Shown here piece after piece: positions 9,987-63,581 of a stretch of DNA of 64,000 nucleotides (position 1 is its first letter; each line of letters opens with the position of its first letter). The notes below the pieces were generated by a model. It did not search any database. It had not been told where the DNA came from and saw only the letters and a list, made by a program, of their open reading frames with translations. The DNA is from Tannerella serpentiformis. GTDB taxonomy: Bacteria > Bacteroidota > Bacteroidia > Bacteroidales > Tannerellaceae. The translations under genes were made by a program, and so were the position numbers. The DNA lies in the NCBI RefSeq assembly GCF_003033925.1, contig NZ_CP028365.1:2294001-2358000 (forward strand). The letters are read 5' to 3'.

Positions 9987-10325
9987 CATAGCCTATGAAA
10001 GATGATATTAGTGTATTGGTTTAGTATTATTGACTATGATATTAAGTATATAGTTCGTTATTTATTTTCATAGGATATGAGGGAGTATATGCGTATAAAG
10101 AAGATATATCATAGTCTATAATTCTTTCTATTGATATGTGTAGAGGTATTCATAGCGTATAATGAGAGGTATAATCCATCTAAGGACTATTCATAGGCTA
10201 TGATTTTTATGTTTCATGCGTATAAGAACTTTCATAGCCTATGACAGATGGTATCCATTACATAAAGTATTGTCATAGACTATGATGCATACTTTTCATA
10301 TGTAGAAGGATTGTCATAGCCTATG
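9987..10325. repeat. Palindromic array E, 41-bp period, nine units, upstream of DUF6261 gene 1
   Basis: The 11-base palindrome CATAGNCTATG, usually extended to TCATAGNCTATGA, begins at 9987, 10028, 10069, 10110, 10151, 10192, 10233, 10274 and 10315, exactly 41 bp each time. Some copies are degenerate, such as TATTGACTATG and CATAGGATATG. The 30-base spacers are AT-rich and show no common sequence, unlike the other arrays. Invariant spacing without spacer conservation indicates that the distance and the word matter, not recent copying. The last copy abuts the promoter at 10348. Confidence 0.94.
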
Positions 10326-10347
10326 ACGATCGTCTCTCTTTTAGAAA

Positions 10348-10355
10348 TACCTTTG
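10348..10355 (+). promoter_or_regulatory. -7 box upstream of DUF6261 gene 1
   Basis: TACCTTTG matches TAnnTTTG. The -33 position falls on the end of the ninth palindrome of array E (TATGA, 10322-10326) instead of a TTTG. This suggests that a factor bound to the array could replace or block the -33 contact. Confidence 0.6.
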
Positions 10356-10466
10356 CGCAAGGAGGAGTTGGGTCTTTGTTCGCTGTCGAAGTGACAAAAT
10401 GGCATGCGGTCAGGCCTCGACAACTCGAAAAAGTACACATATATATAATGTAAGGAGAACGACAAA

Positions 10467-11252
10467 ATGAAAGTAGATGGATTGAGCATAGGACTGCTCC
10501 TTTCGATGGAAGATTTTGGCTATCAATCCCTGATACAGGAGATGCTTCCGGATCTGCCGCTCGAAACCGCGGATGAAGGCTATTCCGACAAACTCAAATC
10601 GGCCGTCGAGGACTATCGGGCGGTGTATCGCGCGTTCGACGACGCTGTCGAAACCTCTGGAACCACCTCTCCAGCCGTCATCGCCGCCCGCCACGACAAG
10701 GCGCGCGACAATGCCTGGCGTACCCTTCGCGCTTACGTTAAGGTCTGCACCCGCCATCCTGATCCGGACGTGGCCGCCACTTCAACCCGCGCCCTTCAAC
10801 TGATCCGTAACATCGGCGACCTCTCCATACGGAACCGTACCGACGAAACCGGGCGCCTCAATACCCTCATTCAGAGCCTCCGCGAGATTGGCGCCGCCCC
10901 ACTCGCACAGGCTGGTATTACGCCTTTCATCGACGATTTGGAGCGTAAGGATCACGCCTATCGAGAGGCTTATCAACACTGGATAGACGTTAAGGGCGAC
11001 CGTACGATTGGCCTCGTCCAACTCAAACGCCGCGCTGCCGACGCCGCCTATCGCAACCTTATTACGACTGTCAACGCCCTCATCCACCTCAATGGCGACG
11101 CACCCTACGCCGCCTTCGTGCGCTCCGTTAACGCCCTCATCAAGCGCAACAAGACGACCCTTATCACCCGCCAGACCCTCCGTGCCAAGCGTCACCACTC
11201 ACTCATAGCGCCCCCTCCCGCAACCGAAAACCAGCAGCACTCCGAATCATGA
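10467..11252 (+). CDS. DUF6261-like protein 1
   Basis: This 261-residue helical protein has no signal peptide and no enzyme motif. The core pattern is a charged N-terminal region, then ARHDKARDNAWRTLRAYVKVC, a Leu/Ile-rich middle with LNTLIQSLREIGAAPLAQAGI, then FIDDLERKDHAYREAYQHW, then DAAYRNLITTVNALIHLNGDAPYAAFVRSVNALIKR. This matches what I know of the Bacteroidota family DUF6261. An AAGGAGA ribosome-binding site precedes the ATG. The stop overlaps the rlmH start by 4 bases (ATGA), so the genes are translationally coupled. It is one of four paralogues in the window, each behind a palindromic array. The function is unknown. Confidence 0.75.
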   Translation: MKVDGLSIGLLLSMEDFGYQSLIQEMLPDLPLETADEGYSDKLKSAVEDYRAVYRAFDDAVETSGTTSPAVIAARHDKARDNAWRTLRAYVKVCTRHPDPDVAATSTRALQLIRNIGDLSIRNRTDETGRLNTLIQSLREIGAAPLAQAGITPFIDDLERKDHAYREAYQHWIDVKGDRTIGLVQLKRRAADAAYRNLITTVNALIHLNGDAPYAAFVRSVNALIKRNKTTLITRQTLRAKRHHSLIAPPPATENQQHSES

Positions 11253-11722
11253 ACGTCGAACTTTGGATGATCGGCAAAACCGACCACTCCTATTGGCGCG
11301 AAGCACAAGACGAGTATGTCCGCCGCCTGATCCACTATCTACCCTTCTCCTTACGCATCATTCCCGACGTCAAAAACGCCGCCCGCCTCACCGAATCGCA
11401 GCAAAAAGCCCAAGAAGGCCAACAGATCCTGAAAGCACTACAACCAAGCGATCAATGCATCTTACTCGACGAAAAGGGTACCGAACACACCTCCGTCGGC
11501 TTCTCTGTCTACCTCTCGAAGCGACTGCAACAGCCCTCCAGACGGCTTATTTTCGTCATTGGCGGCCCTTACGGGTTCAGTGACGCCGTCTACACCCGTG
11601 CAACAGATCGTTTATCCGTTAGCCGAATGACCTTCTCCCATCAAATGGTTCGAGTGATCTTCTTAGAACAGCTATACCGCTCAATGACGATCATAAAAGG
11701 GGAACCCTACCACCATGAATAG
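11249..11722 (+). CDS. rlmH: 23S rRNA (pseudouridine-1915-N3)-methyltransferase
   Basis: This 157-residue SPOUT methyltransferase shows the RlmH landmarks. These are the N-terminal KTDHSYWREAQDEYVRRL, the DEKGTEHTSVGFS segment, the glycine-rich cofactor knot FVIGGPYGF, and the C-terminal SRMTFSHQMVRVIFLEQLYRSMTIIKGEPYHHE. The C-terminal Tyr-His-His is diagnostic. It methylates pseudouridine 1915 in helix 69 of 23S rRNA. Its start overlaps the DUF6261 stop. Confidence 0.97.
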   Translation: MNVELWMIGKTDHSYWREAQDEYVRRLIHYLPFSLRIIPDVKNAARLTESQQKAQEGQQILKALQPSDQCILLDEKGTEHTSVGFSVYLSKRLQQPSRRLIFVIGGPYGFSDAVYTRATDRLSVSRMTFSHQMVRVIFLEQLYRSMTIIKGEPYHHE

Positions 11723-11838
11723 AGATTTTGCCTCTTGGATTGGCTGTCTTGATAAAAAAAACAGCGGTCCTCGTTTTCGTGTAGAGACTGTAAATCAGCA
11801 ATCAAGCATAATTTAACACAGCAGATGTAGTGGTAAGA

Positions 11839-11869
11839 TTTGGAAGAGAAGAAAGTCCATGTACTTTTG
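11839..11869 (+). promoter_or_regulatory. rrn promoter P1
   Basis: TTTG at 11839-11842 and TACTTTTG at 11862-11869 are 19 bases apart. Transcription would begin near 11876, roughly 480 bases before 16S. Confidence 0.72.
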
Positions 11870-12111
11870 CACCCGCTTTCGAGAGAGGGAGCGACGATAA
11901 AGATGAAATGCTGGAAGAGCGAACGGTAAGAGTCGTTAAAGAAAAAGAACTTGGAAAGCAGTCTTCTTCTTAGTTAATAGGAAGAAGTCGATATATTTAA
12001 GTGTAAGATTCAGCGACGGGAAGCTTGATAAGAGTTATCCACTCAAATGTGAGTAAAGAAGCAAGCACCGTTCAACAAGAGAGTCCACTCGAAAATTTTT
12101 TTCTCGAAAAA

Positions 12112-12144
12112 TTTGGTGGAATGAAATAAAGGGTTTTATCTTTG
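12112..12144 (+). promoter_or_regulatory. rrn promoter P2
   Basis: TTTG at 12112-12115 and TATCTTTG at 12137-12144 are 21 bases apart. The box is preceded by an AT-rich tract (TTTTTTTCTCGAAAAATTT) resembling an UP-like element. Two stacked promoters are usual for rRNA operons. Confidence 0.72.
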
Positions 12145-12355
12145 CGCCCCGAAACCTGCAAGAGAGAGCAGGTCGGAAGAAAGAAAAAATGCTAGAATGA
12201 GGAAAGTCAATAATAGATTCCTCTATCAGCGAAAGAGCGATCTTTGTAAGATTTACATGTATACAAGATGTAGTACAGAAAGAATAGAAAGTACCGTCAA
12301 TGATACAATAAGAAAAGGGCATCTATGAGCGAAGCAAAGGATATAAACAATATCA

Positions 12356-13884
<1,529 letters not shown>

Positions 13885-14081
13885 TGGAGCAAGCTCAGAA
13901 GATGTCCGATTTTCTGTATTATAGTCAAGTACTTCGTTTTAGTATGTACTACTTTCTTGTTTACATGTTATAAATAGAAGAATAAAAGAAGCTGGGTAGT
14001 TGATTCTTAGATGTTCGTAAACAATCATCATGATGAGGCTAAAGAAGAAGTTTTCCATATTCCCGGCGGAAGTTGAAAGAG

Positions 14082-14155
14082 AGTCCTATAGCTCAGTTGG
14101 TTAGAGCGCTACACTGATAATGTAGAGGTCGGCAGTTCAACTCTGCCTGGGACTA
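14082..14155 (+). tRNA. tRNA-Ile (GAT)
   Basis: The acceptor stem pairs AGTCCTA (14082) with TGGGACT (14148-14154). The anticodon GAT is at 14116-14118 and the T arm is GGCAG-TTCAACT-CTGCC. CCA is not encoded. It sits in the 16S-23S spacer as expected. Confidence 0.97.
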
Positions 14156-14170
14156 CTTAAGAGACAATAT

Positions 14171-14244
14171 GGGGGATTAGCTCAGCTGGCTAGAGCACCT
14201 GCTTTGCAAGCAGGGGGTCAACGGTTCGAATCCGTTATTCTCCA
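14171..14244 (+). tRNA. tRNA-Ala (TGC)
   Basis: The acceptor stem pairs GGGGGAT (14171) with ATTCTCC (14237-14243). The anticodon TGC is at 14205-14207 and the T arm is AACGG-TTCGAAT-CCGTT. CCA is not encoded. It lies 15 bases after tRNA-Ile. Confidence 0.97.
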
Positions 14245-18041: not shown

Positions 18042-18950
18042 TTACTCCTCCGGCAGATGGATGTCGGGATTGCCGTCGCCGCCTTCTTTAGGCGATTGGG
18101 GCTGCTCCGGCTTGTCCGGCTTCTTGGGATCCTTCGGCTGATCGGGCTTCTTGGGGTCCTTCGGATCCTTGGGCTGCTTCGGCTCTTTCGGATCCTTCGG
18201 TTTACGCTGCGCATGCATTTGTCGCTGGGTGGCTCGTGTCTCGCGCGAGATTTTGTTCATGCGGTCGACGAGTTGGTCGAAGAGGGCCTTGTCATCATCG
18301 GTGGTGGCGTTGAGATAGGCCGAAAGGATGTATTGACAGACGATGTTGAAGGCCGCGTCTGTGAGCGGGCGGACCGTACTGGCTAAAGGCAGTTGGGAGT
18401 CTGCCCCGGCGAGGCTGCGTGTCTTTTGCAGCTCGATATACTCGTCGTTGATGGTGTAAGGCTGCGTGAAGGAAGCGGTCAGGCCCAGTGTGGCAATGTC
18501 GGCAGAGAAGCCGGCCATGTCTTTTTTGATACCTAAGATCAGGCTGCTCTCCTTGTCGTAAGGGGCTTTACGGGTGTCGGAATAATAGGCGCGAAGCTTT
18601 TCGTCGATGCGTTTGGCGGCTTCACGATTGGCGGAGACGGAGGAGAGTTTGTTACCGCGAACAATAAAGAAGATGCTCTCCAGCTGCTCGTCGCGTTCCT
18701 CGTCTTTCTTCAGTAGCTCGGCCGTATGGCGAGAGAAGGTTGATTCTCGGCTGAGGTCGCCTTCGGCCTCAATCCCTTTATACTAGTTGGGCATGAGGTT
18801 GGCGGGCAATTTCAGCTTGGTGTTGTCGATGGCCTTGACCAAGTCGTACTGTTTACGATGAAACATCTCATGGATCGGCAGGGTTAATCGATCCGTACTT
18901 ATTGGCTCAATGCGCAACACTCTCGGTAAATCCATTGTAAATGGTTCCAT
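18042..18950 (-). pseudogene. DUF6261-like gene 2, interrupted by an in-frame TAG
   Basis: From the ATG at 18950 the frame reads MEPFTMDLPRVLRIEPISTD and runs to LKLPANLMPN, then hits TAG at 18783-18785 (codon 56). Past it the same frame continues YKGIEAEGDLSRESTFSRH to a normal stop at 18042, so about 302 codons are otherwise intact. Gene 4 has FPAGLMEIWNGRLSREVKV at the matching place, so the TAG probably replaced a Trp or Glu codon. The C-terminus is a Pro/Lys/Asp linker ending NPDIHLPEE, almost the same ending as gene 3. Array D lies directly upstream. A downstream restart could make a shortened protein. Confidence 0.82.
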
Positions 18951-19013: not shown

Positions 19014-19320
19014 CTACACTGTAGTTTCTACCAATCCCTATGCGCAAGGCCCGAACTACACTGTAGTTTTCGGGTAATAAGTCAGAAAAACGCCGTTGAC
19101 AGTGTAGATCGGCGTTTTTCAAGTCTGAAAAGCCGAATCGACAGTGTAGATCGGCGTTTTTCAAGTCTGAAAAGCCCGAATGACAGTGTAGATCGGCGTT
19201 TTTCAAGTCCGAAAAGCCGAATCGACAGTGTAGATCGGCGTTTTTCAAGTCTGAAAAGCCGAATCGACAGTGTAGATCGGCGTTTTTCAAGTCCGAAAAG
19301 CTCAATTGACAGTGTAGTTC
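19014..19320. repeat. Palindromic tandem array D, 42-bp period, eight units, upstream of DUF6261 gene 2
   Basis: Read toward the minus-strand gene, the unit anchor (CTACACTGTAG or ACAGTGTAG) occurs at 19014, 19056, 19099, 19141, 19183, 19225, 19267 and 19309, a 42-bp period. The two gene-proximal units hold a true palindrome (AACTACACTGTAGTT). The six distal units hold a second inverted repeat, TCGGCGTTTTTC...GAAAAGCCGA. The array fills the gap between pepD (ends 19332) and the DUF6261 gene, with the last palindrome centred 69 bases before its ATG. Confidence 0.92.
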
Positions 19321-19331
19321 GGGGTGATCCC

Positions 19332-27526: not shown

Positions 27527-27544
27527 GGCAACTAAAAACTAAAA

Positions 27545-27666
27545 GCCGGGGCGTCAGGGACGCCTGCCAAGAAAGCCGGAGGCGTCAGGGATGCCTGCCA
27601 AGAAAGCCGGGGCGTCAGGGACGCCTGCCAAGAAAGCCGGGGGCATCAGGGATGCCAGCCAAGAAA
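27545..27666. repeat. Tandem 30-bp repeat, four units
   Basis: Units starting GCCGG at 27545, 27575, 27606 and 27636 each carry the inverted repeat GGCGTCAGGGACGCC (or its GGCATCAGGGATGCC variant) and end in GCCAAGAAA. Arm changes are compensated (C to T with G to A), which suggests the pairing is kept. The array runs into the terminator at 27667. Confidence 0.88.
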
Positions 27667-27711
27667 GCCGGGTACATGTGGAGGAATTCTCTGCATGTAT
27701 CCGGCTTTTTT
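27667..27711 (+). terminator. Terminator after metH built from a GCCGGGTACATG element
   Basis: GCCGGGTACATG (27667-27678) pairs with CATGTATCCGGC (27694-27705), followed by six T. The same arms recur at 63649-63698 and as half-copies near 17852, 37068 and 59146. Confidence 0.8.
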
Positions 27712-28502
27712 ATGTTCACGGAAGCCGCCGGCCGGCAGGGTAGGGGCGTATCGCATACGCCCTCCCACACGCCCCGGTATAAGGGGCGAATGCGTGTTCC
27801 TCGTGTTCAAACACCGTTTCATCGTCATTCAAACACGATTCAAACGTCATTCAAATTCGTCCCTGCGGGCCGTCGGTGAGGGCGTATGCGATACGCCCTA
27901 CTCCGGTACGCGCATCATGTACCCGGCTTTCTTGGCTGGCGTCCCTGACGCCTCCGGCCTCTGCCGAGGCAGGAAAGCTGGCCGGGTATCTCAAAAGCCC
28001 GTACCAAGCAAACTTCGCCGGCGTCCGGCCTCTGCCGAGGCTGGGAAGTTGGCCGGGTACCTCAAAAGCCCGTACCAAGCAAACTTCGCCGGCGTCCGTA
28101 GACGCCCCGAGGGGTCGGAAATGATGAAACAGGTTGTTTGAAGGTTTTCGAGGGCTCGGAAATGATGAAACAGGTTGTTTGAAGCTTTCCGAGGGCTCGG
28201 AAATGATGAAACAGGTTGTTTGAAGCTTTCCGAGGGGTCGGAAGGGATACCAGCCAAGAAAGCCGGTTACATCAAACGCGTACCCTGATAGATTCGCCGG
28301 CGTCCGCAGACGCCCCGAGGGGTCGGAAGGGATACCAGCCAAGAAAGCCGGTTACATCAAACGCATACCCGGCTTTCTTCGCCGGCGTCCGGCCTCTGCC
28401 GAGGCTGGGAAGCTGGCCGGGTACCTCAAAAGCCCGTACCAAGCAAACTTCGTCGGCGTCCGTAGACGCCCGCCGGCTTCCGCAGATGCCCCGAGGGGGG
28501 AG
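27712..28502. repeat. Composite intergenic repeat region
   Basis: No gene is supported. The stretch is a mosaic of dispersed elements. It holds palindromes GGCGTATCGCATACGCC and GGGCGTATGCGATACGCCC near 27746 and 27881. Copies of a longer block run from GCCGAGGCTGGGAAGCTGG through GCCGGGTACCTCAAAAGCCC to GGCGTCCGTAGACGCC. A short 41-bp array lies at 28117-28246, and two copies read GGGATACCAGCCAAGAAAGCC. The same long block recurs between the TPM genes. Confidence 0.85.
28117..28246. repeat. Short palindromic array J, 41-bp period, three full units (orphan)
   Basis: GGAAATGATGAAACAGGTTG starts at 28117, 28158 and 28199, and a partial unit starts at 28240. All are 41 bp apart. Each holds AAACA-GGT-TGTTT. 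It has the same period as the other arrays, inside the composite repeat region. Confidence 0.82.
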
Positions 28503-29721: not shown

Positions 29722-29886
29722 ATGAATGAGTGATGAGTGATTCGAGAACATAGGTAGGGGCGTCCGCAGACGGCCTCTGCCGAGGCTGGGAAGCTGGCCG
29801 GGTACCTCAAAAGCCCGTACCAAGCAAACTTCGCCGGCGTCCGTAGACGCCCGCCGGCTTCCGCAGACGCCCCGCGGATCGGTGCA
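29722..29886. repeat. Intergenic repeat block between TPM copies 1 and 2
   Basis: This block is almost identical to 30994-31157. It contains the GCCGAGGCTGGGAAGCTGG to GGCGTCCGTAGACGCC element and GGGGCGTCCGCAGACG. Its position in both gaps shows the TPM gene and its spacer were duplicated together. Confidence 0.88.
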
Positions 29887-30993: not shown

Positions 30994-31157
30994 TGAATGA
31001 GTGATGAGTGATTCGAGAACATAGGTAGGGGCGTCCGCAGACGGCCTCTGCCGAGGCTGGGAAGCTGGCCGGGTACCTCAAAAGCCCGTACCAAGCAAAC
31101 TTCGCCGGCGTCCGTAGACGCCCGCCGGCTTCCGCAGACGCCCCGCGGGTCGGTGCA
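30994..31157. repeat. Intergenic repeat block between TPM copies 2 and 3
   Basis: This is a near-identical copy of 29722-29886 with the same order of elements. Confidence 0.88.
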
Positions 31158-34010: not shown

Positions 34011-34073
34011 AATCTGTTTTGTTGAGGGGAGAGCACCTCTGGGTGTCTGCCCTTTCGATGTATTGTCAATAAT

Positions 34074-34504
34074 CAAACCACCTGGTTTGATCCTTTCCGG
34101 GGGTCGGTTTGGGTTCAAACCACCTGGTTTGACCCTTTTCAGGGGTCGGTTTGGGTTCAAACCACCTGGTTTGACCCTTTTCAGGGGCCGGTTTGGGTTC
34201 AAACCACCTGGTTTGACCCTTTCCGGGGGTCGGTTTGGGTTCAAACCACCTGGTTTGGCCCTTTTCGGGGGTCGGTTTGGGTTCAAACCACCTGGTTTGG
34301 CCCGAATCAGGGGCGGGTTTTGCTTCAAACCAATGGTTTGGCCCGAATCGGGGGTCGGTTTTGCTTCAAACCAATGGTTTGGCCCAAATCGGGGGTCGGT
34401 TTTGCTTCAAACCAATGGTTTGGCCCGAATCAGGGGCCGGTTTTGCTTCAAACCAATGGTTTGGCCCAAATCAGGGGCCGGTTTTGCTTCAAACCAATGG
34501 TTGG
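34074..34504. repeat. Palindromic tandem array G, 42- then 41-bp period, eleven units (orphan)
   Basis: CAAACCA starts at 34074, 34116, 34158, 34200, 34242, 34284 and 34326 (42 bp apart), then 34367, 34408, 34449 and 34490 (41 bp apart). The first six palindromes are 16 bases (CAAACCACCTGGTTTG). From 34326 on they are 15 bases (CAAACCAATGGTTTG). The spacer stays at 26 bases, with CCGGTTT-like and CAGGGG-like parts. The step from 42 to 41 comes only from the palindrome losing one base. It lies between coaD and the S41 protease. Confidence 0.93.
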
Positions 34505-34525
34505 ACCCGAATCAGGAGGCGGGTT

Positions 34526-34993
34526 TTACGTCTGCGCCATGTCGCGGATCTCGGGGGGGATAAAGTCGGAGATGTCCTTGCCGAAGTGCAGCAGCTCGCG
34601 CACGATGGAGGAGCTGATGTGCGTGTGCTCCGGCTCGGTAAAGAGGATGAACGTCTCGATGCCGGCGAGCTTACGGTTGACGTCGGCGATGTTCTTTTCA
34701 TACTCAAAGTCGTTGACCGTGCGGATGCCGCGCAGGATAAAGCGGGCGCCGACGGTGTGGGCAAAGTCGACGGTGAGCGTGTCGTAGGCGGCCACACGGA
34801 CGCGTGGCTCGTCACGATAGAGGGTACGGATGAACTCCAACCGTTTCTCGATTGGGAAGTAGGTCCGTTTGTTCTCGTTCGTACCGATGGCCACGATGAT
34901 CTCGTCTACCAACCCCAGGCCGCGGTCGACAAGCGAGCGGTGGCCGATGGTGAAGGGGTCGAAGGTGCCGGGGAAGATGGCGATGCGATGCAT
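34526..34993 (-). CDS. coaD: Pantetheine-phosphate adenylyltransferase
   Basis: The 155-residue protein has the nucleotidyltransferase signature [10 protein letters not shown] (T15-x-G-H18 in place of HxGH), [12 protein letters not shown] and the ISSSIVRE motif at the C-terminal site. It makes dephospho-CoA from 4'-phosphopantetheine and ATP. Length and motifs are standard. Confidence 0.97.
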
Positions 34994-36922: not shown

Positions 36923-37134
36923 TAGAGGGTGGAGGGTAGAGAGTAGAGGGTAGAGGGTAGAGGGTGGAGGGTAGAGGGTAGAGGGTAGAGGGTAGAGGGT
37001 AGAGAGTAGAGGGTAGAGAGAGGAGAACAGGGGGGAGGAGAGTGGGCAGTAGAGAGTAGGACTGGCATGTACCCGGCTCTACCCTCTACCCTCTACCCTC
37101 TACCCTCTACCCTCTACCCTCTACCCTCTATCCT
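36923..37134. repeat. Heptamer satellite forming a long inverted repeat
   Basis: The left arm (36923-37020) is about thirteen imperfect copies of TAGAGGG. The right arm (37076-37134) is about eight copies of the complement, CCTCTAC. A spacer of 55 bases contains GGCATGTACCCGGCTC. The block fills the entire gap between parE and the next gene, whose TAG stop lies at the repeat edge. Slippage or hairpin formation is likely. Confidence 0.9.
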
Positions 37135-38262
37135 CTATAAATGCTTGATAAACGCGCGGCGCGACTTGTGATGCTCACGCTTGAAGTAGTCCCACTGAGC
37201 TTGCACGGCGGTGTTGTTTTCTAGCTCGATGTTGCTCTCGGCATACTCGGCGCCCATCTTGATATACTGCGGGATGAGGTCGGTGAAGAGCAACGCGTTC
37301 ACGCCCTTGTTCTGATACTCCGGCAGGACGCCCGTGAGGTAGAGATCGATCACGCGTGCCTTCGACTTGAGCGCCTTCATCAGCGGGAAGAAGCCGAAGG
37401 GCAGCAGACTGCCTCGGGCCTGTTGCAGGGCGTGTGAGAGGTTGGGTAGGGAGACGCCGAAGCCCACCACGGCGTCGTCCTCCTCGCGGACGATGACGGT
37501 CACGAGGTCGAGTCGCAGCAGGGGGATATAGATGTCGACGTAGTAATCAATCTGCCGCTTGGTCAGCGGAGCGAAGCCGTAGAGGGGCGTGTAGGCGGCG
37601 TTCAGCGTCTCGAACACCTTGTGGGCATAGGGCATGATGTCTTTGCGGCGACGGAACTTGAGCACCTTCAGCCCGTATTTCTTCTTGACGATCTCGGCGA
37701 TGCGTAGGTGCTTCTCGGGGATGGCGTCGGGGATGTAGATCTTGAACTCGTGCCAGTCCTGATCCTTGGTGTAGCCCATGCGCTCCATGTGCTGCGGGTA
37801 GTAGGGATGATTGTAGATGGTGGCCATTGTGCCGATCTGGTCGAAGCCCATGATGAGCATGCCCTCGTGATCCAAGTCGGTAAAGCCCATAGGCCCGTGT
37901 AGGGCGTCCATGCCCTTCTTACGCGCCCACTTTTCGACGGCGGCGAAGAGGGCGTCGACCACCTCCTGGTCGTCGATAAAGTCCACGAAGCCGAAGCGAG
38001 CGCGGTGTTGATTCCAGACGCGGTTAGCGGCGTGCGCAATGATGCCCGCGATGCGCCCGACGATGCGTTCGCCTCGATAGGCCAGATAGTAGATGGCTTC
38101 GCAATTCTCGAAGGCCGGGTTTTTATCTCGCGACAGGGTGATCATCTCTTCGTCGATCAGCCCCGGCACATAGTAGGGGTTGCCCTTGTACAGGTCGATG
38201 GGGAACTTCACGAAGCGCCTGAGCTCGCTCTTAGTCGTGACCTCCCTGATGGTTACGCTCAT
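37135..38262 (-). CDS. GNAT-fold N-acetyltransferase-like protein
   Basis: The ATG at 38262 gives 375 residues opening MSVTIREVTTKSELRRFVKFPIDLYKG. A YLAYRGERIVGRIAGIIAHAAN segment matches the first GNAT strands. ARKKGMDALHGPMGFTDLDHEGML and GVLPEYQNKGVNALLFTDLI resemble the acetyl-CoA site in diverged form. This large GNAT-like family is common in Bacteroidota and has no firm substrate. A -7 box (TACTTTTG, 38306-38313 minus) lies 44 bases upstream. Confidence 0.78.
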   Translation of the reverse strand: MSVTIREVTTKSELRRFVKFPIDLYKGNPYYVPGLIDEEMITLSRDKNPAFENCEAIYYLAYRGERIVGRIAGIIAHAANRVWNQHRARFGFVDFIDDQEVVDALFAAVEKWARKKGMDALHGPMGFTDLDHEGMLIMGFDQIGTMATIYNHPYYPQHMERMGYTKDQDWHEFKIYIPDAIPEKHLRIAEIVKKKYGLKVLKFRRRKDIMPYAHKVFETLNAAYTPLYGFAPLTKRQIDYYVDIYIPLLRLDLVTVIVREEDDAVVGFGVSLPNLSHALQQARGSLLPFGFFPLMKALKSKARVIDLYLTGVLPEYQNKGVNALLFTDLIPQYIKMGAEYAESNIELENNTAVQAQWDYFKREHHKSRRAFIKHL

Positions 38263-40379: not shown

Positions 40380-40686
40380 CGCGAAACCGATCGCTGACCT
40401 TCAAAAACGCCTTCCCGCCGCGGGAAACCGATCAAAACTTTCTGAAAACGCCTTCCCGCGGCGGGAAATGGGGTAAATTCTCAGAAAAACGCTTTCCCGC
40501 GGCGGGAAATGGAAAAAAATCTCAGAAAAACGGTTTTCTGCGGCGGGAAATGGAAAAAAATCTCAGAAAAACGGTTTTCTGCGGCGGGAAGGCGATAAAA
40601 TCGCTCGAAAAACGCCTTCGTGCGGCGGGAAGGCGGTAAAATTTGCTGGAGATCGGTTTCGTGCGGCGGGAAAAGGGGGCGTACGG
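40380..40686. repeat. Palindromic tandem array H, 41-bp period, eight units (orphan)
   Basis: CGGGAA (first copy CGCGAA) starts at 40380, 40421, 40462, 40503, 40544, 40585, 40626 and 40667, all 41 bp apart. It is the right half of TTTCCCGCGGCGGGAAA. The left arm is best kept in the 40462 and 40503 units and drifts in others (TTTTCTGCGGCGGGAAA, TTCGTGCGGCGGGAA). Spacers are A-rich. The same word is used by array I at 56.1 kb. Confidence 0.92.
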
Positions 40687-47719: not shown

Positions 47720-48015
47720 TAGGGGTACGGACGTCTCCAGCAAGTTGCAGGAGATCACTGTAGGGCTACAAACATCTCCCGCAAGTTGCAGGAGATACTC
47801 CGTAGGGGTACAAACATCTCCCGCAAGTTGCAGGAGATACTCCGTAGGGGTACAAACATCTCCCGCAAGTTGCAGGAGATACTCCGTAGGGGTACAAACA
47901 TCTCCCACAAGTTGCAGGAGATACTCCGTAGGGGTACAAACATCTCCCGCAAGTTGCAGGAGGCTTTCGGAGGCTTACGAAGGTTTCCAGTAGATTGCGG
48001 GAGGTTGCCGTAGGA
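47720..48015. repeat. Palindromic tandem array B, 42-bp period, seven units, upstream of DUF6261 gene 3
   Basis: GCAAGTTGC, flanked by ATCTCC and GGAGAT arms, starts at 47740, 47781, 47823, 47865, 47907, 47949 and, diverged, 47990. Spacing is 41-42-42-42-42-41. The spacer carries CCGTAGGGGTAC, the same as in array A. The last palindrome is centred about 69 bases before the DUF6261 ATG, the same distance as at array D. Confidence 0.93.
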
Positions 48016-48062: not shown

Positions 48063-48995
48063 ATGAATATAGCATTAACAAGACTATCAACCAGAGCTTT
48101 AGGCGGTTTGGCACAGCGCGTAGTCAAATCGTCCAAGAACGGAAAATTCAAGATTGTTGAGGAGCACGAACTGCTCAAGTCGCTTGAAAAGGAGTCGAAA
48201 GAGTTCGAAGACCTTTACGGCAAACTGACCTACAGCGGGAAGGGCAACGAAATCGTGGCCGCAGACGTGGCGCGCGACAAGACGTTCACCGCCCTCCGCA
48301 CCTTACTCAAGGGCTACAAAGAGCTACCCCTGCCTAACGCCGCCGATGCGGCAGCCCTCTACAAGGTGTTCGAACAGTATGGCGCCAACGTAGAGCGCAT
48401 GAATTATGTGGCTGAGACGGCGCAGATGGTCGTCATCTTCAAGGAGTTGGACAAGCCTGAAAACGAGGCTCGCTTCGAGGCCCTCAAGTTCAAACCCGCT
48501 TACGAGGAGCTGAAAAAACGTCAGAACGCCTTCGAAGACCTCTACGCCGTGCAGGCCGAAGCCAACGCAGAACTGCGCAAACTGCCCCCAGCCACAGCTG
48601 CTCGGGCGCGTCTCCAGAAGGCCCTCACGGCTTACCTCAACCTGCTCGAGGCCATGAAGGATCTCCCCACTTGGGACACGCTCTACCTCGACATCAACGA
48701 GATGGTCAAGTCCGCCGCAGCCACCTATCGCAACGACCGCAGCGACAAGGCCCCCGACGATCCCAACGCACCCAAGGAGCCGAAAGAGCCCAAAAAGCCG
48801 CGCAAACCCAAAGACAACGATCCGGACATTCGTCTGCCTGAGGACGGCAAGCCCAAGCAACCCGAGGCCGGTGGCGGCGGCACGCCGGAGAAGCCCAAGC
48901 AGCCCGAAACGGGCGGCGGTGGCACTCCCGAGCCTCCGAAAAAGCCCGAAGCGGGTGGCGGCGGAACGCCGGAGATTCATTTGCCCGAAGAGTAA
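48063..48995 (+). CDS. DUF6261-like protein 3 with Pro/Gly-rich tail
   Basis: The 310-residue protein is helical to about residue 225, with the family pattern ADVARDKTFTALRTLLKGYKEL, AALYKVFEQYGANVERMNY, FEALKFKPAYEELKKRQNAFEDLYAVQAEANAELR and RARLQKALTAYLNLLEAM. A low-complexity tail of Pro, Lys, Glu and Gly follows (three copies of GGGGTPE). It ends PEIHLPEE, like pseudogene 2 (PDIHLPEE). There is no signal peptide. It lies directly behind array B. Confidence 0.75.
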   Translation: MNIALTRLSTRALGGLAQRVVKSSKNGKFKIVEEHELLKSLEKESKEFEDLYGKLTYSGKGNEIVAADVARDKTFTALRTLLKGYKELPLPNAADAAALYKVFEQYGANVERMNYVAETAQMVVIFKELDKPENEARFEALKFKPAYEELKKRQNAFEDLYAVQAEANAELRKLPPATAARARLQKALTAYLNLLEAMKDLPTWDTLYLDINEMVKSAAATYRNDRSDKAPDDPNAPKEPKEPKKPRKPKDNDPDIRLPEDGKPKQPEAGGGGTPEKPKQPETGGGGTPEPPKKPEAGGGGTPEIHLPEE

Positions 48996-56137: not shown

Positions 56138-56432
56138 CGCGAGACCGATCTCGGACTTTGCGAAATGCCTTCCCGCCGCACGAAATCGATCAAAATTTTC
56201 TGGAAACGCCAAAATGAGGCGGGAAATCGATCAAATTCTCCGAAAAGTCACTTTTTGCGACGGGAAACGGGGAAAATTCTTCGAAAAGTCATTTCCCGCG
56301 GCGGGAAAGGGGAAAAATGCCTCGGAAAACGGCTTCGTGCGGCGGGAAGGCGTCTAAAAGTTTCGGAGATCGGTTTCGCGCGGCGGGAAAAGGAGGATAA
56401 TCTCGCAAAACGCCTTTCTGCCGCCGAATGAC
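56138..56432. repeat. Palindromic tandem array I, 41-bp period, eight units (orphan, same word as H)
   Basis: The CGGGAAA half-word or its variants are anchored at 56138, 56179, 56220, 56261, 56302, 56343, 56384 and 56425, 41 bp apart. The best palindrome is TTTCCCGCGGCGGGAAA, ending in the 56302 unit. The array opens with AACGCCAAAATGAAACGCGA, also found at the start of array H. Arrays H and I, 15.7 kb apart, are therefore related copies. Confidence 0.9.
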
Positions 56433-57547: not shown

Positions 57548-59113
57548 ATGCGCAACAAACTACTCCTTGCCCTCGCCCTGCTCCTGAGCCTCGGCGCATG
57601 CACCACATCGCGCCTCGTGAAGCAGGAAAAACGCATCTATCCCAAACGCGAATTTCGCGGCGCGTGGTTTCAGACCATCTACCAGAACGACTACCGCGGA
57701 CTCTCGGCCGACGACTTTCGCGCGCTCATGGATCAGCGCCTCGACCGCCTGAAACGCTATGGCATCAACGCCATCTTCTTCCAAATCCGCCCCGAGGCCG
57801 ACGCCTTCTACCCCTCCCGCTACGAGCCCTGGAGCCGTTGGCTGACGGGTCGCCAGGGCGAAGCGCCCGAGGACGAGGCGTTCGATCCGCTGGCCTACCT
57901 CATCGAAGCCTGCCACCTGCGCGGGCTGGAGTTTCACGCCTGGCTCAACCCCTATCGCGCCGGCGCAACGGACTTTGAGGACTTTGCCGAAACGCACATC
58001 TACCGCCGCCATCCCGAGTGGTTCGTGCGCTATAACCGCATGACGCTCTTCGATCCCGGCATCCCCGACTGCCGCCTCTTCATCTGCGGCGTGGTGCGCG
58101 ACATCGTCACCCGTTACGACATCGACGGCATCCATATCGACGACTATTTCTACCCCTACCCCGTCGCCGGCGAGCCCTTCCCGGACGAGGAGAGCTTCTC
58201 CCGCTACGGTCCGCCCGCGGGCTTCTCCGCCAACCGCCGCGATGACTGGCGCCGCAACAACATCAACCTCCTGATCCGCGAGCTGAAGATGACCGTAGCC
58301 TCGGCCAAGCCGTGGGTCAGCTTTGGCGTCAGCCCCTTCGGCATCTACCGCAACAAGTCGTCCGACCGCCACGGCAGCGACACGCGCGGGCTGCAAGACT
58401 ACGACGACCTCTATGCCGACGTGGTGCTGTGGATGAAGAACGGCTGGATCGACTACTGCGCCCCGCAGCTCTATTGGGAGATCGGCCACAAGTCGGCCGA
58501 CTACTCGACGCTCATCCACTGGTGGAGCGGCCTCAAGACGCGCACTCCGCTCTACATCGGGCAGGACGTGGCCCGCACCATGAAGGCCGGGCAACTGGCG
58601 CAAAAGATGATCGAGGAGCGCGAGGCGAAGCGCGTCGACGGACACATCTTCTGGCCCGCCGGCGAACTGCTGCGCAACAACGGTCACGTGGCCGACAGCC
58701 TCCGCCGCATCTGGCACCGCTACCCCGCGCTCACTCCGCCGCTCTCCAAAGCCTACACCGACCGACCCGACGCCGTGCAGAACCTCCGCATCGCGCAGAC
58801 GGACGGCGCCACGCGCCTCGTGTGGGACATCGCCCCGCAGGATCCTCGCGCACCCCGTAAGACGCCCATGCGTTACGTCGTCTATCGCTTCCCCCTCGGC
58901 GAACGCCGCGACATCAGCCGTGCCTCTATGATCGTCGCCATCACCGGCGAGCCCTCTTTCCAGCTTCGCGACAGCGACCTCGAGCTCCCCTACACCTACG
59001 TCGTCACCGCCGTCGATCGCTATCACAACGAGAGCAAACCGTGCAAACCCCTCAAACTCGATGGCCGCACGCGCTACATCAATCTCAGAGGAGAACTTGG
59101 CCAGCGTCCCTGA
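57548..59113 (+). CDS. Glycosyl hydrolase-like lipoprotein (GHL10/DUF187, YngK-like)
   Basis: The 521-residue protein has a lipoprotein signal (LLLSLGAC, Cys19). A GHL10 TIM-barrel domain follows: EFRGAWFQTIYQND, GINAIFFQIRPEADAFYPS, GLEFHAWLNPYR, VRYDIDGIHIDDYFYPYP-like segments, and WVSFGVSPFGIYRNK. A fibronectin-like C-terminal domain spans about residues 415-510. The family is linked to glycan or peptidoglycan turnover but is poorly defined. It is probably co-transcribed with the epimerase. From 59114 to 59217 there is only a copy of the GGGACGC / CATGTACCCGG repeat family. Confidence 0.9.
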   Translation: MRNKLLLALALLLSLGACTTSRLVKQEKRIYPKREFRGAWFQTIYQNDYRGLSADDFRALMDQRLDRLKRYGINAIFFQIRPEADAFYPSRYEPWSRWLTGRQGEAPEDEAFDPLAYLIEACHLRGLEFHAWLNPYRAGATDFEDFAETHIYRRHPEWFVRYNRMTLFDPGIPDCRLFICGVVRDIVTRYDIDGIHIDDYFYPYPVAGEPFPDEESFSRYGPPAGFSANRRDDWRRNNINLLIRELKMTVASAKPWVSFGVSPFGIYRNKSSDRHGSDTRGLQDYDDLYADVVLWMKNGWIDYCAPQLYWEIGHKSADYSTLIHWWSGLKTRTPLYIGQDVARTMKAGQLAQKMIEEREAKRVDGHIFWPAGELLRNNGHVADSLRRIWHRYPALTPPLSKAYTDRPDAVQNLRIAQTDGATRLVWDIAPQDPRAPRKTPMRYVVYRFPLGERRDISRASMIVAITGEPSFQLRDSDLELPYTYVVTAVDRYHNESKPCKPLKLDGRTRYINLRGELGQRP

Positions 59114-59217: not shown

Positions 59218-60528
59218 ATGAACCCCACCAAATTAACAGCGCAGTGGCTCACTATCCTTTTTGCTACAGCCTTCATTTCCGCTACCCTCTCCGCTCAAAC
59301 GGTGAATAGGGATCGCTACATCGTCCTCACCATCACAAGCGATCCGGACGCTGAATCGGCTTTCTCCTTAGATCCCGAAGATAAAAGAGCCTACTTCTAT
59401 CTCACAGCCGACACCGACAATACGCCGGTGGAAATCGTCTATGGTAATATTTGCAGCACCATTATGGTTCACTCTCGAGAGCGCGACGCTGTAGGTACAC
59501 AGTACGTCTACCTACCGAAGACGTCCACCATGACGATCTATGGCAATGTAAACGGACTGAATTGCTACGCCGCTGGTCACGAACCGTTTGTCGACTTCGG
59601 TCCACTCGACTTCAACGGCGGCGTGCAGGGCCCTGTGAGCAACCTCAACATCAGCCACAATCAGGGATTGAAGACGCTCGACTGTACGAACAACATGATC
59701 TCACTGCTCGACGTGAGCTGGAACACCGGGCTGGAGGAGCTTAACTGTTCACACAACGGTTTGACCACATTGGATGTGAGTCGTAATACGGCGCTGAAGG
59801 TGCTCGACTGTTCGAGTAATGCATTGGGGACGATTGACGTGAGCCACAACACGGCCTTAATCTCGTTGAGCTGCTCTGAAAACGGCCTCTCACAGATCGA
59901 CGTGAGCCGAAACACCGCATTAAAGTCGCTCGATTGCTGCATCAATCAACTGACCCTGCTCGACGTCAGCCGAAACACGGCTTTGACTGATTTGAACTGC
60001 TTTGCCAATGAGTTCCGGTCGATTGATGTCAGCCGCAACACGGCCTTGACCCGTCTCATCTGTTCGGGAAACAAGCTGACCGCGTTGGATATCCGTCCCC
60101 ACACTGCACTAGAGGAACTCAATTGCCAGCAAAACAAAATCATCCAACTCGACCTCAGTCAGAACACGGCGCTGAAGTCGTTGCGCTGCTCCGAAAACCG
60201 GCTTACAACGCTCGATTTGAGCGCCAATCAATCCCTCGAGTTGCTGCAGTGTTACGGAAACCAGTTGACTGCCGCCGCTCTCGATCGCATCTATTGCGCC
60301 CTGCCCGATCGAACCGCTAAGGAGCCCGGCGAGCTATTCCCTGCGTGGACAGATGATTGGGATGACGCCCCCGATCCAGACAAGCCCAAAGTGTTGGCCG
60401 CGAACGGCCGAAACGCCACTCGTAAGAATTGGAAAATCCTTTATAAGAGTAATGGTGTAACCAGATCAGGTCTCGGCATCGAAATCACCGGCTTCACAGG
60501 GCGATACATCTGTGGCAGCGGCAAGTAG
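59218..60528 (+). CDS. Leucine-rich repeat surface protein
   Basis: The 436-residue protein has a signal peptide (WLTILFATAFISATLSAQ). A unique domain of about 115 residues is followed by ten 21-residue leucine-rich repeats of the form LxxLxCSxNxLTxLDVSxNTA (about residues 140-345), then a C-terminal domain of 80 residues. The unit is exactly 63 bases, so copy number could change by recombination. No standard type IX signal is seen at the end. Extracellular binding is likely for this repeat class in oral Bacteroidota. Confidence 0.88.
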   Translation: MNPTKLTAQWLTILFATAFISATLSAQTVNRDRYIVLTITSDPDAESAFSLDPEDKRAYFYLTADTDNTPVEIVYGNICSTIMVHSRERDAVGTQYVYLPKTSTMTIYGNVNGLNCYAAGHEPFVDFGPLDFNGGVQGPVSNLNISHNQGLKTLDCTNNMISLLDVSWNTGLEELNCSHNGLTTLDVSRNTALKVLDCSSNALGTIDVSHNTALISLSCSENGLSQIDVSRNTALKSLDCCINQLTLLDVSRNTALTDLNCFANEFRSIDVSRNTALTRLICSGNKLTALDIRPHTALEELNCQQNKIIQLDLSQNTALKSLRCSENRLTTLDLSANQSLELLQCYGNQLTAAALDRIYCALPDRTAKEPGELFPAWTDDWDDAPDPDKPKVLAANGRNATRKNWKILYKSNGVTRSGLGIEITGFTGRYICGSGK

Positions 60529-60596
60529 CACCTTTCGTTTTTCATTCCCTCATTCTCTCCCCCCCACAGTCTTTCACTTTTAGTTTTTCGCTCACT

Positions 60597-62420
60597 ATGA
60601 TTCCCCATTTCGCAGAACTAATCCACCATCAGGCCGAACGCTACGGCCAACGCGTCGCCCTGCTTCATCGCGATCCACGCACCGGCAAGTGGCTCGGCAT
60701 CTCCTGGAACGCCTTTGCCGACCGCGTCCGACTCACCTCGCAGGCACTCATCGAGTACGGCATCGGCGTGCAGGAAAACATCGGCATCTATGCCCCCAAT
60801 ATGCCCCAGTACTTCTACACCGCCTTCGGTGCCTATGGCGCTCGCGCCGTGGAAGTGCCCATGTACCCCACCGGATCGCCCGACCAGATCAAATACATCG
60901 TCCGCGACGCCAACATCCGACTGCTCTTCGTCGGCGAACAGCAGCAGTACAACAACGCCTACAAGGCGCAACAGGAGATGGGCGACACGCTCCGGAAGAT
61001 CGTCATCTTCGACCGCAGCGTCGTCCGTTATCCCACCGACGAGACGAGCGTCTTCTTCGAGGAGTTCGTCCGCCTCGGTGACAACGCCCGCGCCGAAACC
61101 GCCGCGCGCATCCGCCGCAACGAGGCCACCGACGACGACGTGGCCCTCATCATCTACACCTCCGGTACGACGGGCGAGCCCAAGGGCGTCGTCATCACTC
61201 ACGCCAACTTTCGCGAGATGATGCGCATTCACACCCTCCGTCTGCCGATGGTCACCGAGCGTGACCTCTCCATGTGCTTCCTACCACTCGTCCACATCTT
61301 CGAGAAGGGCTGGACCAACTTCTGCCTCTGCCGCGGCGTACGCATCGCCATCAACCGCGACCCGAAAATGATCCGCCAGACGCTGCTCGAAGTGCGGCCC
61401 ACGCTCATGTGCAACGTGCCGCGCTTCTGGGAGAAGGTCTACGCCGGCGCCAACGAACGCCTCACCCGCGCCGCCGGGCCTATGCAGCGCCTCCTGCGTG
61501 ACGCCCTCCGCACCGGCCGCGAGTATGTCCTCAACTATCGCCGTACGGGCGAGACGCCTCCCCGCACGCTGGCCCTCAAGTTCGCCTTCTACCAAAAGAC
61601 GGTCTACAGCGCCCTCAAACGCGCCGTCGGCATCGAGCGCGGCAACATCTTCCCCGTGGCCGGCGCGCCCCTCTCGGACGAGATCGCCGAGTTCCTCCTC
61701 TCCGTCGACATTCCCATCGTCTACGGCTACGGCCTCTCCGAAACCTCCGCCACCGTCTGCTGCTACCCCACCGTGGGCTACACCCTCGGCTCCATTGGCA
61801 CCCTCATGCCCGACATCGACGTCCGTATCGATCCGGAGAACAACGAGATCCTTGTCCGCGGCAAGACCATCATGCGCGAGTATTACCGTAAGCCCGAAGA
61901 GACCCGCCGCGCCTTCACGCCCGACGGATACTTCCGCACCGGCGACGCGGGTAGGCTCGGGGAGGACGGCTGCACGCTCTTCTTCCAAGAGCGCATTAAG
62001 GATCTCTTCAAGACCTCGAACGGCAAATACATCGCCCCGCAAGCGATCGAGATGAGCCTCGGCGGCAACCCCTACATCGAGCAGTGCGCCGTCATAGCCG
62101 ACGAGCGCAAGTTCGTCAGCGCCCTCATCGTGCCTGCCTTCGACGCCCTCGAGGCCCATGCCCGCGCCCGCGGCATAGCCTTCACCGACCGTGCCGATCT
62201 CATCGCCCGTGAGGACATCATCCGCTTCTACCGTTCGCTCATCGAGGAGGCACAGCAGCATTTCGCCTCGTTCGAGAAGATCAAGCGTTTCACCCTTCTC
62301 CAGCGCCCCTTCACCATCCAGGACGGCGAATTGACCGACACCCTCAAGCTCCGTCGTGGCGCCATCGCCCGTCGCTACGCCGCCGAGATTGAGGCCATGT
62401 ATAAGGACACGGAGAAATGA
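60597..62420 (+). CDS. fadD: Long-chain acyl-CoA synthetase (AMP-forming)
   Basis: The 607-residue protein has the adenylation motifs ALIIYTSGTTGEPKGVVITH, VYGYGLSETSATVC, the YFRTGDAGRL hinge and DLFKTSNGKYIAPQAIE. It activates fatty acids to acyl-CoA through acyl-AMP. Its lysine-containing C-terminal segment (LTDTLKLRRGAI) is the usual LTxxLKxRR form. Array F begins 15 bases past its stop. Confidence 0.94.
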   Translation: MIPHFAELIHHQAERYGQRVALLHRDPRTGKWLGISWNAFADRVRLTSQALIEYGIGVQENIGIYAPNMPQYFYTAFGAYGARAVEVPMYPTGSPDQIKYIVRDANIRLLFVGEQQQYNNAYKAQQEMGDTLRKIVIFDRSVVRYPTDETSVFFEEFVRLGDNARAETAARIRRNEATDDDVALIIYTSGTTGEPKGVVITHANFREMMRIHTLRLPMVTERDLSMCFLPLVHIFEKGWTNFCLCRGVRIAINRDPKMIRQTLLEVRPTLMCNVPRFWEKVYAGANERLTRAAGPMQRLLRDALRTGREYVLNYRRTGETPPRTLALKFAFYQKTVYSALKRAVGIERGNIFPVAGAPLSDEIAEFLLSVDIPIVYGYGLSETSATVCCYPTVGYTLGSIGTLMPDIDVRIDPENNEILVRGKTIMREYYRKPEETRRAFTPDGYFRTGDAGRLGEDGCTLFFQERIKDLFKTSNGKYIAPQAIEMSLGGNPYIEQCAVIADERKFVSALIVPAFDALEAHARARGIAFTDRADLIAREDIIRFYRSLIEEAQQHFASFEKIKRFTLLQRPFTIQDGELTDTLKLRRGAIARRYAAEIEAMYKDTEK

Positions 62421-62434
62421 CGCACTAAGAAGCC

Positions 62435-62739
62435 AAACAGGCGCCTGTTTGGGCTCCCTGCAATTTGTGTAACGGTAAACAGGGCCCCTGCGGGGGCAGC
62501 GAAGTTTGGCCGGGTACCAGGAAAAACTTCCCTACCTCGGCAGAGGCCAGCGCGAAGTCAAACAGGCGCCTGTTTGGGCTCCTGCAATTTGTGTAACGGT
62601 AAACAGGCGCCTGTTTGGGTCTACGCAATCTGCGCAATGGTAAACAGGCGCCTGTTTAGGCTCCTGCAATTTGTGTAATGGTAAACAGGCGCCTGTTTGA
62701 GCCTACGCAATCTGTGCAATGGTAAACAGGCGCCTGTTT
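62435..62739. repeat. Palindromic tandem array F, 41-bp period, seven words plus one lost, upstream of DUF6261 gene 4
   Basis: The perfect palindrome AAACAGGCGCCTGTTT starts at 62435, 62560, 62601, 62642, 62683 and 62724, with a damaged copy at 62477. Intact neighbours are 41 bp apart. Between 62490 and 62558 one unit has been replaced by sequence of another repeat family (GGCCGGGTACC and CGGCAGAGGCC), yet the flanking words keep their phase (83 bases, or two units). Spacers alternate between CTCCTGCAATTTGTGTAA and CTACGCAATCTGTGCAA forms, as in array A. Confidence 0.94.
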
Positions 62740-62766
62740 GAGTTCAAACGAATAAAATGACCTTTG
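62737..62766 (+). promoter_or_regulatory. Possible promoter whose -33 lies in the last palindrome of array F
   Basis: The last word ends in TTTG at 62737-62740. GACCTTTG, one base off TAnnTTTG, is at 62759-62766, 18 bases on. A start near 62773 would lie 20 bases before the DUF6261 ATG. Confidence 0.42.
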
Positions 62767-62792
62767 GGGATCATTAAAACGACGAGATACAT

Positions 62793-63581
62793 ATGACAAC
62801 GACAAGCAATGACCTGCCAGAGGTCGCTAAAATCGAAGAGCGCGGCGGATGGAACTTTACCATCGCGCTGCATGTAGAGTTTCAGTATGAGCAATACAAT
62901 CGAATCAAGGATTTTGATCAGGCGAAACTGAAATTTCCCGCTGGACTGATGGAAATATGGAACGGGCGGCTGAGCCGGGAGGTGAAGGTGAATAAGACGG
63001 TGAAAGAATCGGCTTTTGTCACGCAGCTGAGCGATCTCGACAAAGAGCGAGACAAGATGCTGACGAGCATTTTTGCCATCGTCCGCGGCCAAAAACTATC
63101 GCCCAAAAAGTCTACGGCCGAGGCCGCCGCACGCTTGGCACGTGTGCTGAAGCCTTACGCGAATATCCAGCGGGCCTCATTTGATGAGGAGTCGGCTGAC
63201 ATCCGAGGGTTGAAGGAAGACGTGCGCACACTGACGGACGACATCGCCACGCTGGGACTCACCGACTCCTTTACGGAACTTTTCGCCCTGAACGACTCCT
63301 TCGTTGCGCTTCGCCTCCAGCGGCAGGTGGAGTCGCCGAGGGAAGATCTGCCCAATGCGCGCGTGGCACGCGCCGAGACGAGCGAGGCTTACGACGTCGT
63401 TTGCTGCTACATCGAAGCCGCTTTCTTGCATGCCGCCAATGAGGAAGACCGCGCCGCGATCGGTGCCCTGATCAAGGATTTGAACAAGGTGACGGCCGCT
63501 TACAAGACGACGTACAACAAGAAGGTCGGGCAGCGGAAGCGGGGCGCGGCGAAGCCTGACGACGATCAGTCGGAGGAATGA
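62793..63581 (+). CDS. DUF6261-like protein 4
   Basis: The 262-residue protein is mainly helical and without a signal peptide. It is closest to pseudogene 2: FPAGLMEIWNGRLSREVKVNK, LDKERDKMLTSIFAIVRGQKLS, ADIRGLKEDVRTLTDDIATLGLTDSFTELFALNDSFVALR and YDVVCCYIEAAFLHAANEEDRAAIGALIKDLNKV. The matching parts of gene 2 include DIATLGLTASFTQPYTINDEY. It ends in a short charged tail. It lies alone behind array F, and nothing in the sequence names its function. Confidence 0.75.
   Translation: MTTTSNDLPEVAKIEERGGWNFTIALHVEFQYEQYNRIKDFDQAKLKFPAGLMEIWNGRLSREVKVNKTVKESAFVTQLSDLDKERDKMLTSIFAIVRGQKLSPKKSTAEAAARLARVLKPYANIQRASFDEESADIRGLKEDVRTLTDDIATLGLTDSFTELFALNDSFVALRLQRQVESPREDLPNARVARAETSEAYDVVCCYIEAAFLHAANEEDRAAIGALIKDLNKVTAAYKTTYNKKVGQRKRGAAKPDDDQSEE

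Follow-up and report, generated by a model that had tools for sequence, protein, structure and literature searches.

Repeats of REPIN-RAYT systems, named for repetitive extragenic palindromic sequences (REPs) and REP-associated tyrosine transposases (RAYTs), are scattered singly or in inverted pairs. Partition centromeres and iterated operators (e.g., parC/ParR, tubC/TubR, and iterons) consist of regularly spaced sites with cooperative binding, in many cases next to the gene for the binder and, in partition systems, to one for a ParA/ParM/TubZ-like NTPase, autoregulated transcription factors with a regulon use dyad sites both beside their own gene and in trans, and arrays of clustered regularly interspaced short palindromic repeats (CRISPR) alternate a constant repeat with unique spacers in the company of cas genes. 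TnpA-REP proteins are described as HUH-superfamily enzymes that process single-stranded REPs (PMC8266576). Here, we analyze a 64,000-bp stretch (G000:C1:2294001-2358000, hereafter the window) of the single-contig, 3,013,500-bp genome of Tannerella serpentiformis, in which four genes of the family DUF6261 (PF19775) each follow an array of palindromic words recurring every 41 or 42 bp. This array-gene module is real and specific. Pfam describes DUF6261 simply as a "family of unknown function." In the portion of the literature that was searched, with most subscription papers outside its scope, DUF6261 was met just as an entry in a mutation table and no array-gene system of this form was described; literature listings on tandem palindromic repeats in Tannerella, Porphyromonas, Bacteroidetes, and Chryseobacterium held nothing relevant-looking.

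Results

A preliminary description of the window had recognized four DUF6261-like genes as diverged paralogues with a 5' array each, and it proved accurate on these points. All four score above the 27-bit gathering cutoff of PF19775 (90 bits for gene 1, 82.6 for gene 3, 129.5 for gene 4, and 39.5 for the open piece of gene 2), identity to gene 4 is 22% for gene 3, 14% for gene 1, and 34% for the gene 2 piece, and the arrays lie where they had been placed, with no intervening gene seen up to the start. Gene 1 (positions 10467 to 11252, plus strand; 261 amino acids; E = 1.9e-25) follows its home array E (9986 to 10326, plus strand), in which nine copies of a TCATAGSCTATGA-like word stand at exactly 41 bp between barely conserved spacers. 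Array D (19014 to 19322, minus strand), 5' of gene 2, is made of 42-bp units with the dyads TTTTCAAGTCTGAAAA and ATCTACACTGTCGAT; its strict copies span 19078 to 19322, the weaker gene-proximal copies below 19078 being judged by eye. Gene 2 itself (18042 to 18950, minus strand) is interrupted by an in-frame stop that divides it into two open pieces in the same frame, the bigger of which retains most of the domain. Gene 3 (48063 to 48995, plus strand; 310 amino acids; E = 3.7e-23) encodes a protein with a lysine/proline-rich tail terminating in PEIHLPEE; its home array B (47734 to 48015, plus strand) repeats the word TCTCCCGCAAGTTGCAGGAGA every 41 to 42 bp and decays toward the gene, with word copies at 47734 to 47963 and degenerate ones, judged by eye, to about 48015. 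The home array of gene 4, array F (62435 to 62739, plus strand), repeats AAACAGGCGCCTGTTT every 41 bp, as a lone first copy at 62435, an insertion, and then a run from 62560 to 62739. Gene 4 (62793 to 63581, plus strand; 262 amino acids; E = 1.3e-37) encodes a predicted all-helical protein, with a mean predicted local distance difference test (pLDDT) score of 87.6 for the model.

The host genome holds 55 DUF6261 loci, all of which pass the PF19775 cutoff. We defined a strict array as at least four copies of a 12-mer, 40 to 43 bp apart, with at most two mismatches from one copy to the next, and sampled all 55 loci with 4 kb per side together with 20 control stretches of 20 kb, hand-picked between DUF6261 hits and thus nonrandom, whose genes were called by a crude open reading frame rule; start codons were guessed. 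A strict array was found within 700 bp upstream of 36 of the 55 DUF6261 starts and downstream of 3. Unrelated genes did not have one equally often: of 252 in the control stretches, 42 had an array upstream and 34 had one downstream (Fisher tests, P = 2.2e-12 for DUF6261 versus other genes and 1.7e-11 for upstream versus downstream). By a looser score based on autocorrelation, 42 of 55 loci were positive within 600 bp upstream and 4 of 55 downstream, versus 1 of 55 in any of twelve control lag bands. Among the 13 loci failing this score, three have a strict array 643 to 1180 bp upstream and a fourth has one at 326 bp; L069 and L070, copies within a single larger duplication, lack an upstream array and carry one 371 to 388 bp downstream. 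The periodicity is itself specific: over 464 kb, 52 arrays were counted at lag 42±1 and 26 at 40±1 (the bands overlap at 41), versus 0 to 6 at each further lag examined, and no array arose in three base-shuffled versions of the window.

DUF6261 was present in 21 of the 41 genomes of a first search of relatives and in 6 of 296 genomes phylum-wide, the host included in both counts, with 0 to 15 copies across 24 same-genus relatives. Most homologues outside the host also have an upstream array: of 66 distinct non-host loci for which 300 bp or more of upstream sequence was available, 46 were positive by the looser score at lag 40 to 43, versus 2 of 66 in control bands and 1 of 62 downstream. In named relatives (23 loci, of which the partial L170 and L171 were excluded), 21 loci had 14 strict arrays in 13.5 kb of upstream sequence versus 2 in 97.6 kb elsewhere, one of the latter (L167) probably standing before a neighboring DUF6261 gene; the 28 loci of the first search of relatives, which overlap this set in part, had 17 in 16.9 kb upstream versus 1 in the remaining 67.5 kb. 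Phages gave no DUF6261 match, and plasmids gave one record, from Parabacteroides distasonis, with a 42-bp array upstream of the gene. Since the module recurs in distant genomes, the comparison suggests that it is old. Array density reached 45 in 400 kb in the host and 2 in 83 kb in a same-genus relative with 15 DUF6261 copies (G014), and no array was found in 482 kb of unmasked sequence sampled at the contig starts of G017, G018, and G023, drafts that are 83 to 98% complete and make up three of the five same-genus genomes with no DUF6261 match.

Array and gene have also been duplicated jointly, as judged from L055, L056, and L057, which are 95 to 97% identical from the first array copy through the gene end and have unrelated flanks. 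L072 and L073 are 97% identical across most of array and gene, with extra matching pieces downstream; the remaining home units of the 47 are mutually unlike. The proposal in the preliminary description that array and gene form one module is thus sustained in the host (36 of 55 loci under strict scoring and 42 of 55 under looser scoring) and in other genomes (46 of 66), with further backing from the joint duplication (three copies) and from the lack of arrays in the sampled parts of the three DUF6261-negative genomes. Across 84 modules, a set that counts one locus twice (L123 and L156), unit similarity was correlated with protein identity below 60% (r = 0.19, 0 of 1,000 permutations), and the correlation persisted below 35% identity (r = 0.13, 1 of 1,000 permutations); for the host genome alone, below 60% identity, r was 0.26 (0 of 1,000 permutations).

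Genome-wide searches with the home words of genes 1, 3, and 4, using reversed patterns as controls, revealed that each word is private to one home array and four to seven satellite arrays, none of which adjoins another of the 55 DUF6261 loci. With two mismatches allowed, the gene 3 word had 61 strand-wise hits, every one of them within one of five arrays (control, 0), and it holds the same off-symmetry position in all five. The gene 4 word, at up to one mismatch, had 39 of 41 sites in eight arrays and two singletons (control, 0); two of these arrays have just two sites each, a number that rises to four and three when three mismatches are allowed. For the gene 1 word, again with one mismatch allowed, 27 of 31 sites fell in five arrays and four were singletons (control, 3 per strand). 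Within these families (5, 5, and 7 arrays compared; spacers aligned ungapped, in the better orientation for two families), consensus identity was 0.94 to 0.96 for the words and 0.51 to 0.64 for the spacers. Likewise, a word of G014 occurs in its home array and two further arrays, which hold all 40 strand-wise hits (control, 0).

One satellite of the gene 3 family, with ten copies (G000:C1:1941489-1941900; L182 and L220), lies between rpoB and rpoC. The gap between these genes measures 586 bp in the host versus 25 to 31 bp in ten same-genus relatives and 21 to 101 bp in eight others, as delimited by a crude stop rule (L237 is out of frame on the rpoC side). Because the gap is far shorter in relatives, this satellite is best explained as a putative insertion in the host lineage; no clear target duplication was seen. 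The genes flanking fifteen satellites had no common theme by inspection, with a few names, RpoB and RpoC among them, recognized by eye.

Among the 63 arrays of the fetched host sequence that adjoin no DUF6261 gene (orphans), 21 match the unit of one of the 47 linked host arrays and 1 matches a linked-array unit of another genome. Matching by dyads assigned 13 of the 63 when each home contributed a single dyad (20 null trials gave 0) and 23 when as many as two were allowed (null range, 0 to 3). Gene orientations around orphans in the control stretches are distributed much as they are at intergenic gaps generally, with no promoter preference, and a custom profile found no DUF6261 remnant near orphan arrays at an E value of ≤1 across these 400 kb. 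Extrapolation from density would put the genome total at about 340 arrays, not necessarily all of them members of DUF6261 families.

Six of the ten strict arrays in the window are orphans. No home gene was found for those at 1115 to 1346 (word AAAACCACACGTGGTTTT), 4688 to 4944 (GAAATGACATTTC), and 34071 to 34528 (11 copies of CAAACCACCTGGTTTG). The four-copy array at 28107 to 28244 (strict rule; TTTCCGAGGGCTCGGAAA) has a unit matching the DUF6261-linked array L160 of another genome, and two orphans, at 40403 to 40674 (TTTCCTGCGGCGGGAAA) and 56215 to 56391, match the home units of L055 to L057. The unit spacer of the array at 1115 to 1346 resembles that of array B with a score of 15, under the threshold of 17. 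Arrays with different words (window positions 1115 to 1346 and 47734 to 47963 and orphans at C1:720907, 2067563, 2656472, and 2834121) have the spacer CTCCGTAGGGGTAC in common, and this spacer closely resembles the dyad of further orphan arrays; recombination of words and spacers, or two alternating sites, may be at play.

In old arrays, the spacers are barely alike, and the dyad still returns every 41 or 42 bp, or after 83 to 84 bp where a copy has decayed. L052 has eleven copies with nine steps of 41 and one of 42, and L084 has nine copies with steps of 42 and 43. A second dyad near midunit is present in several arrays, recognized by eye in L093 and by score in others. In 113 of 151 arrays (dyad score of at least 1.3, eight duplicates removed), mismatched dyad pairs were G/T in 204 cases and A/C in 204 (90:82 in the host's own arrays, 34:46 in other genomes, and 80:76 in orphans). 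Because these mismatches show no strand bias, the arrays look like DNA dyad sites rather than RNA hairpins. A promoter-like box, TAnnTTTG, lies within 140 bp of 17 of the 55 starts, where shuffles gave 2.0, and several of these boxes fall between array and gene. No common promoter geometry emerged across the 55 loci, and some arrays extend nearly to the start codon.

At an E value of ≤0.1, the three intact window proteins matched DUF6261 alone in Pfam, with no transposase domain; the gene 2 piece had two further sub-cutoff hits, neither of them Y1_Tnp. PADLOC and PHROGs gave no match for three window proteins at an E value of ≤0.01, and NCBIfam gave a weak match of gene 4 to MvaT/MvaU (E = 0.0057; 16.8 bits versus a cutoff of 75). 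Neither His nor an invariant Tyr is among the most conserved DUF6261 residues, and within the domain only the end of the last helix is clearly basic (mean +2.8, n = 101). In 36 of the 55 host proteins, a P(D/E)IxLP-type C-terminal motif follows a lysine/proline-rich tail; all 20 matches to a tail query fell in DUF6261 loci, and tail DNA is common to otherwise diverged copies. Proteins of same-genus relatives (L127, L128, L130, L132, L135 to L139, L141, L143 to L147, and L149) have instead a C-terminal extension, recognized by eye, that resembles bacterial Ig-like repeats and replaces this tail. The sole Y1/HUH transposase match of the genome (G000:C1:1380004-1380351) ends about 0.5 kb upstream of L075, a DUF6261 gene without a scored array.

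Elsewhere in the window, GC-rich repeats (e.g., CGCCGGCGTCCGCAGACGCC), apparently unrelated to the 42-bp arrays, occur at 27542 to 28491, 29832 to 29872, and 31103 to 31143. The heptanucleotide tandem repeats TAGAGGG (36923 to 37018) and CTCTACC (37077 to 37137) are close neighbors with opposite orientations. A GHL10 glycosyl hydrolase-like gene (57548 to 59113) is followed by a gene for a leucine-rich-repeat protein (59218 to 60528).

Discussion

The mechanism best supported by these sequence comparisons would be word-specific binding of DNA by DUF6261 itself, or by a partner tightly coupled to it, both in cis (home array) and in trans (satellites). In this model, an array would be a cluster of 13- to 21-bp dyad sites spaced at 41/42 bp, i.e., four turns of B-DNA. 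As four helical turns at 10.5 bp amount to 42 bp, successive sites would face the same side of the helix. They would be bound by dimers of a word-specific protein, probably the DUF6261 product, which would assemble cooperatively along the array. Beside its own start, such binding would set the expression of the gene; in trans, the same protein would occupy satellites with the same word, where it could bridge, mark, or silence. We give about even weight to the complete reading, in which array and gene are one module and a word-specific protein, most likely DUF6261, reads home and satellite arrays as a one-face assembly. The preliminary description had likewise supposed that a word is read by the protein it accompanies or by a partner; this putative pairing gains indirect support from the private words shared with satellites and from the weak but significant word-protein link. 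Its alternative, control of the gene by the array, would fit the 5' location.

Several observations weigh against this reading. At 50 to 60% protein identity, mean unit similarity is just 5.4 versus 4.4 for random pairs, and L053 and L061 have unlike units with proteins that are 74% identical. The gene 3 word, at up to four mismatches, recurs in 3 of 20 gene-3-like loci of another family, two of which (L204 and L209) are the genes L181 and L177 that prompted the idea; among loci new to the test, it was kept in 1 of 18. Words thus turn over rapidly between orthologues. In addition, the majority of orphan arrays could be assigned to no gene, and structure comparison of the helical DUF6261 model returned helical-bundle background alone, with no DNA-binding relative recognized among the families listed. 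Rapid change with the pairing kept fits a fast-evolving reader-site pair and also the drift of a sequence-blind palindrome; we favor the reader-site pair because satellites retain the exact word.

The main rival is that the arrays are selfish, dispersing DNA in the manner of REPs, with DUF6261 as a new, non-HUH kind of protein that aids their spread or persistence as RAYTs do for REPINs and with shared words reflecting descent from the home array. We consider this unlikely, and it could hold together with word-specific binding. It would account for satellites in scattered intergenic places, for the one inserted between rpoB and rpoC (586 bp versus 25 to 31 bp), for an array density that climbs with DUF6261 copy number at three levels (0, 15, and 55), and for the similarity (0.51 to 0.64) that intrafamily spacers retain; however, words and exact spacing are retained as spacers diverge, which suggests selection beyond copying, the three tested words are scarcely found outside arrays, and target duplication is not established. 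Nor do the window DUF6261 proteins have a Pfam transposase domain, or the conserved residues a His or an invariant Tyr. It is also unlikely that the reader is unlinked, i.e., that a host or structure-specific factor recognizes 42-bp-spaced palindromes of any sequence, with DUF6261 as regulated cargo and words that drift and homogenize within arrays. Home and distant satellite arrays share words despite differing spacers, down to the off-symmetry position of the gene 3 word in five arrays, and no arrays were seen where DUF6261 was not found, even if quick word turnover between orthologues and a DUF6261 model unlike known DNA-binding proteins are what such a factor would predict.

It is very unlikely that transcription of the array yields a leader of tandem hairpins through which the gene is regulated or to which its product binds. 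Some arrays do end a few tens of bases from the start codon; however, RNA hairpins on the gene strand would favor G/T over A/C mismatches, TAnnTTTG-like boxes near 17 of 55 starts lie in several cases between array and gene, and orphans occur in all orientations. We rejected RNA hairpins as the principal explanation on the 204:204 mismatch counts. That ordinary tandem repeats stand near these genes by chance is hardly credible in view of the 5' bias, the recurrence in other genomes, the period specificity, and the lack of arrays in genomes where DUF6261 was not found, common as arrays are in the host (45 in 400 kb, and upstream of 42 of 252 other genes).

Word-specific reading by DUF6261 can be extended, tentatively and at somewhat less than even confidence, to a system of multiplexed DNA addressing in a widespread family. 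About 55 near-orthogonal DUF6261 members would each read a private dyad word at home and at a few satellites, and the four-turn spacing would nucleate a one-face assembly linking or marking distant loci. If true, a single genome would hold dozens of orthogonal, fast-evolving protein-DNA pairs with long, regularly spaced targets. They would provide a new model of the evolution of DNA specificity, a new class of bacterial chromosome organizer or repeat system, a source of orthogonal DNA-binding parts, and a first testable function for the Pfam family DUF6261.

Among known systems, REPIN-RAYT/TnpA-REP resembles the DUF6261 module in having a gene with its own palindromic repeat, dispersed relatives of the repeat, and gene-repeat coevolution (PMC8266576). 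Here, too, the gene stands beside its own repeat, with copies elsewhere. However, the words are held in 41/42-bp periodic arrays, with many word families together, rather than as single or paired REPs (61 of 61 strand-wise hits and 39 of 41 and 27 of 31 sites lie in such arrays), and Pfam found no HUH domain in the window DUF6261 proteins that would make them cognate HUH/Y1 transposases, the one Y1_Tnp match of the genome lying at C1:1380004. Unlike CRISPR arrays, recent arrays have nearly identical spacers. An autoregulated transcription factor with its regulon differs from the module in that orphan arrays have no promoter preference, one array lies inside the rpoB-rpoC operon, and no DNA-binding fold was recognized. 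Partition centromeres and iterated operators are set apart by the four-turn unit found here, the many words per genome, and the many chromosomal satellites.

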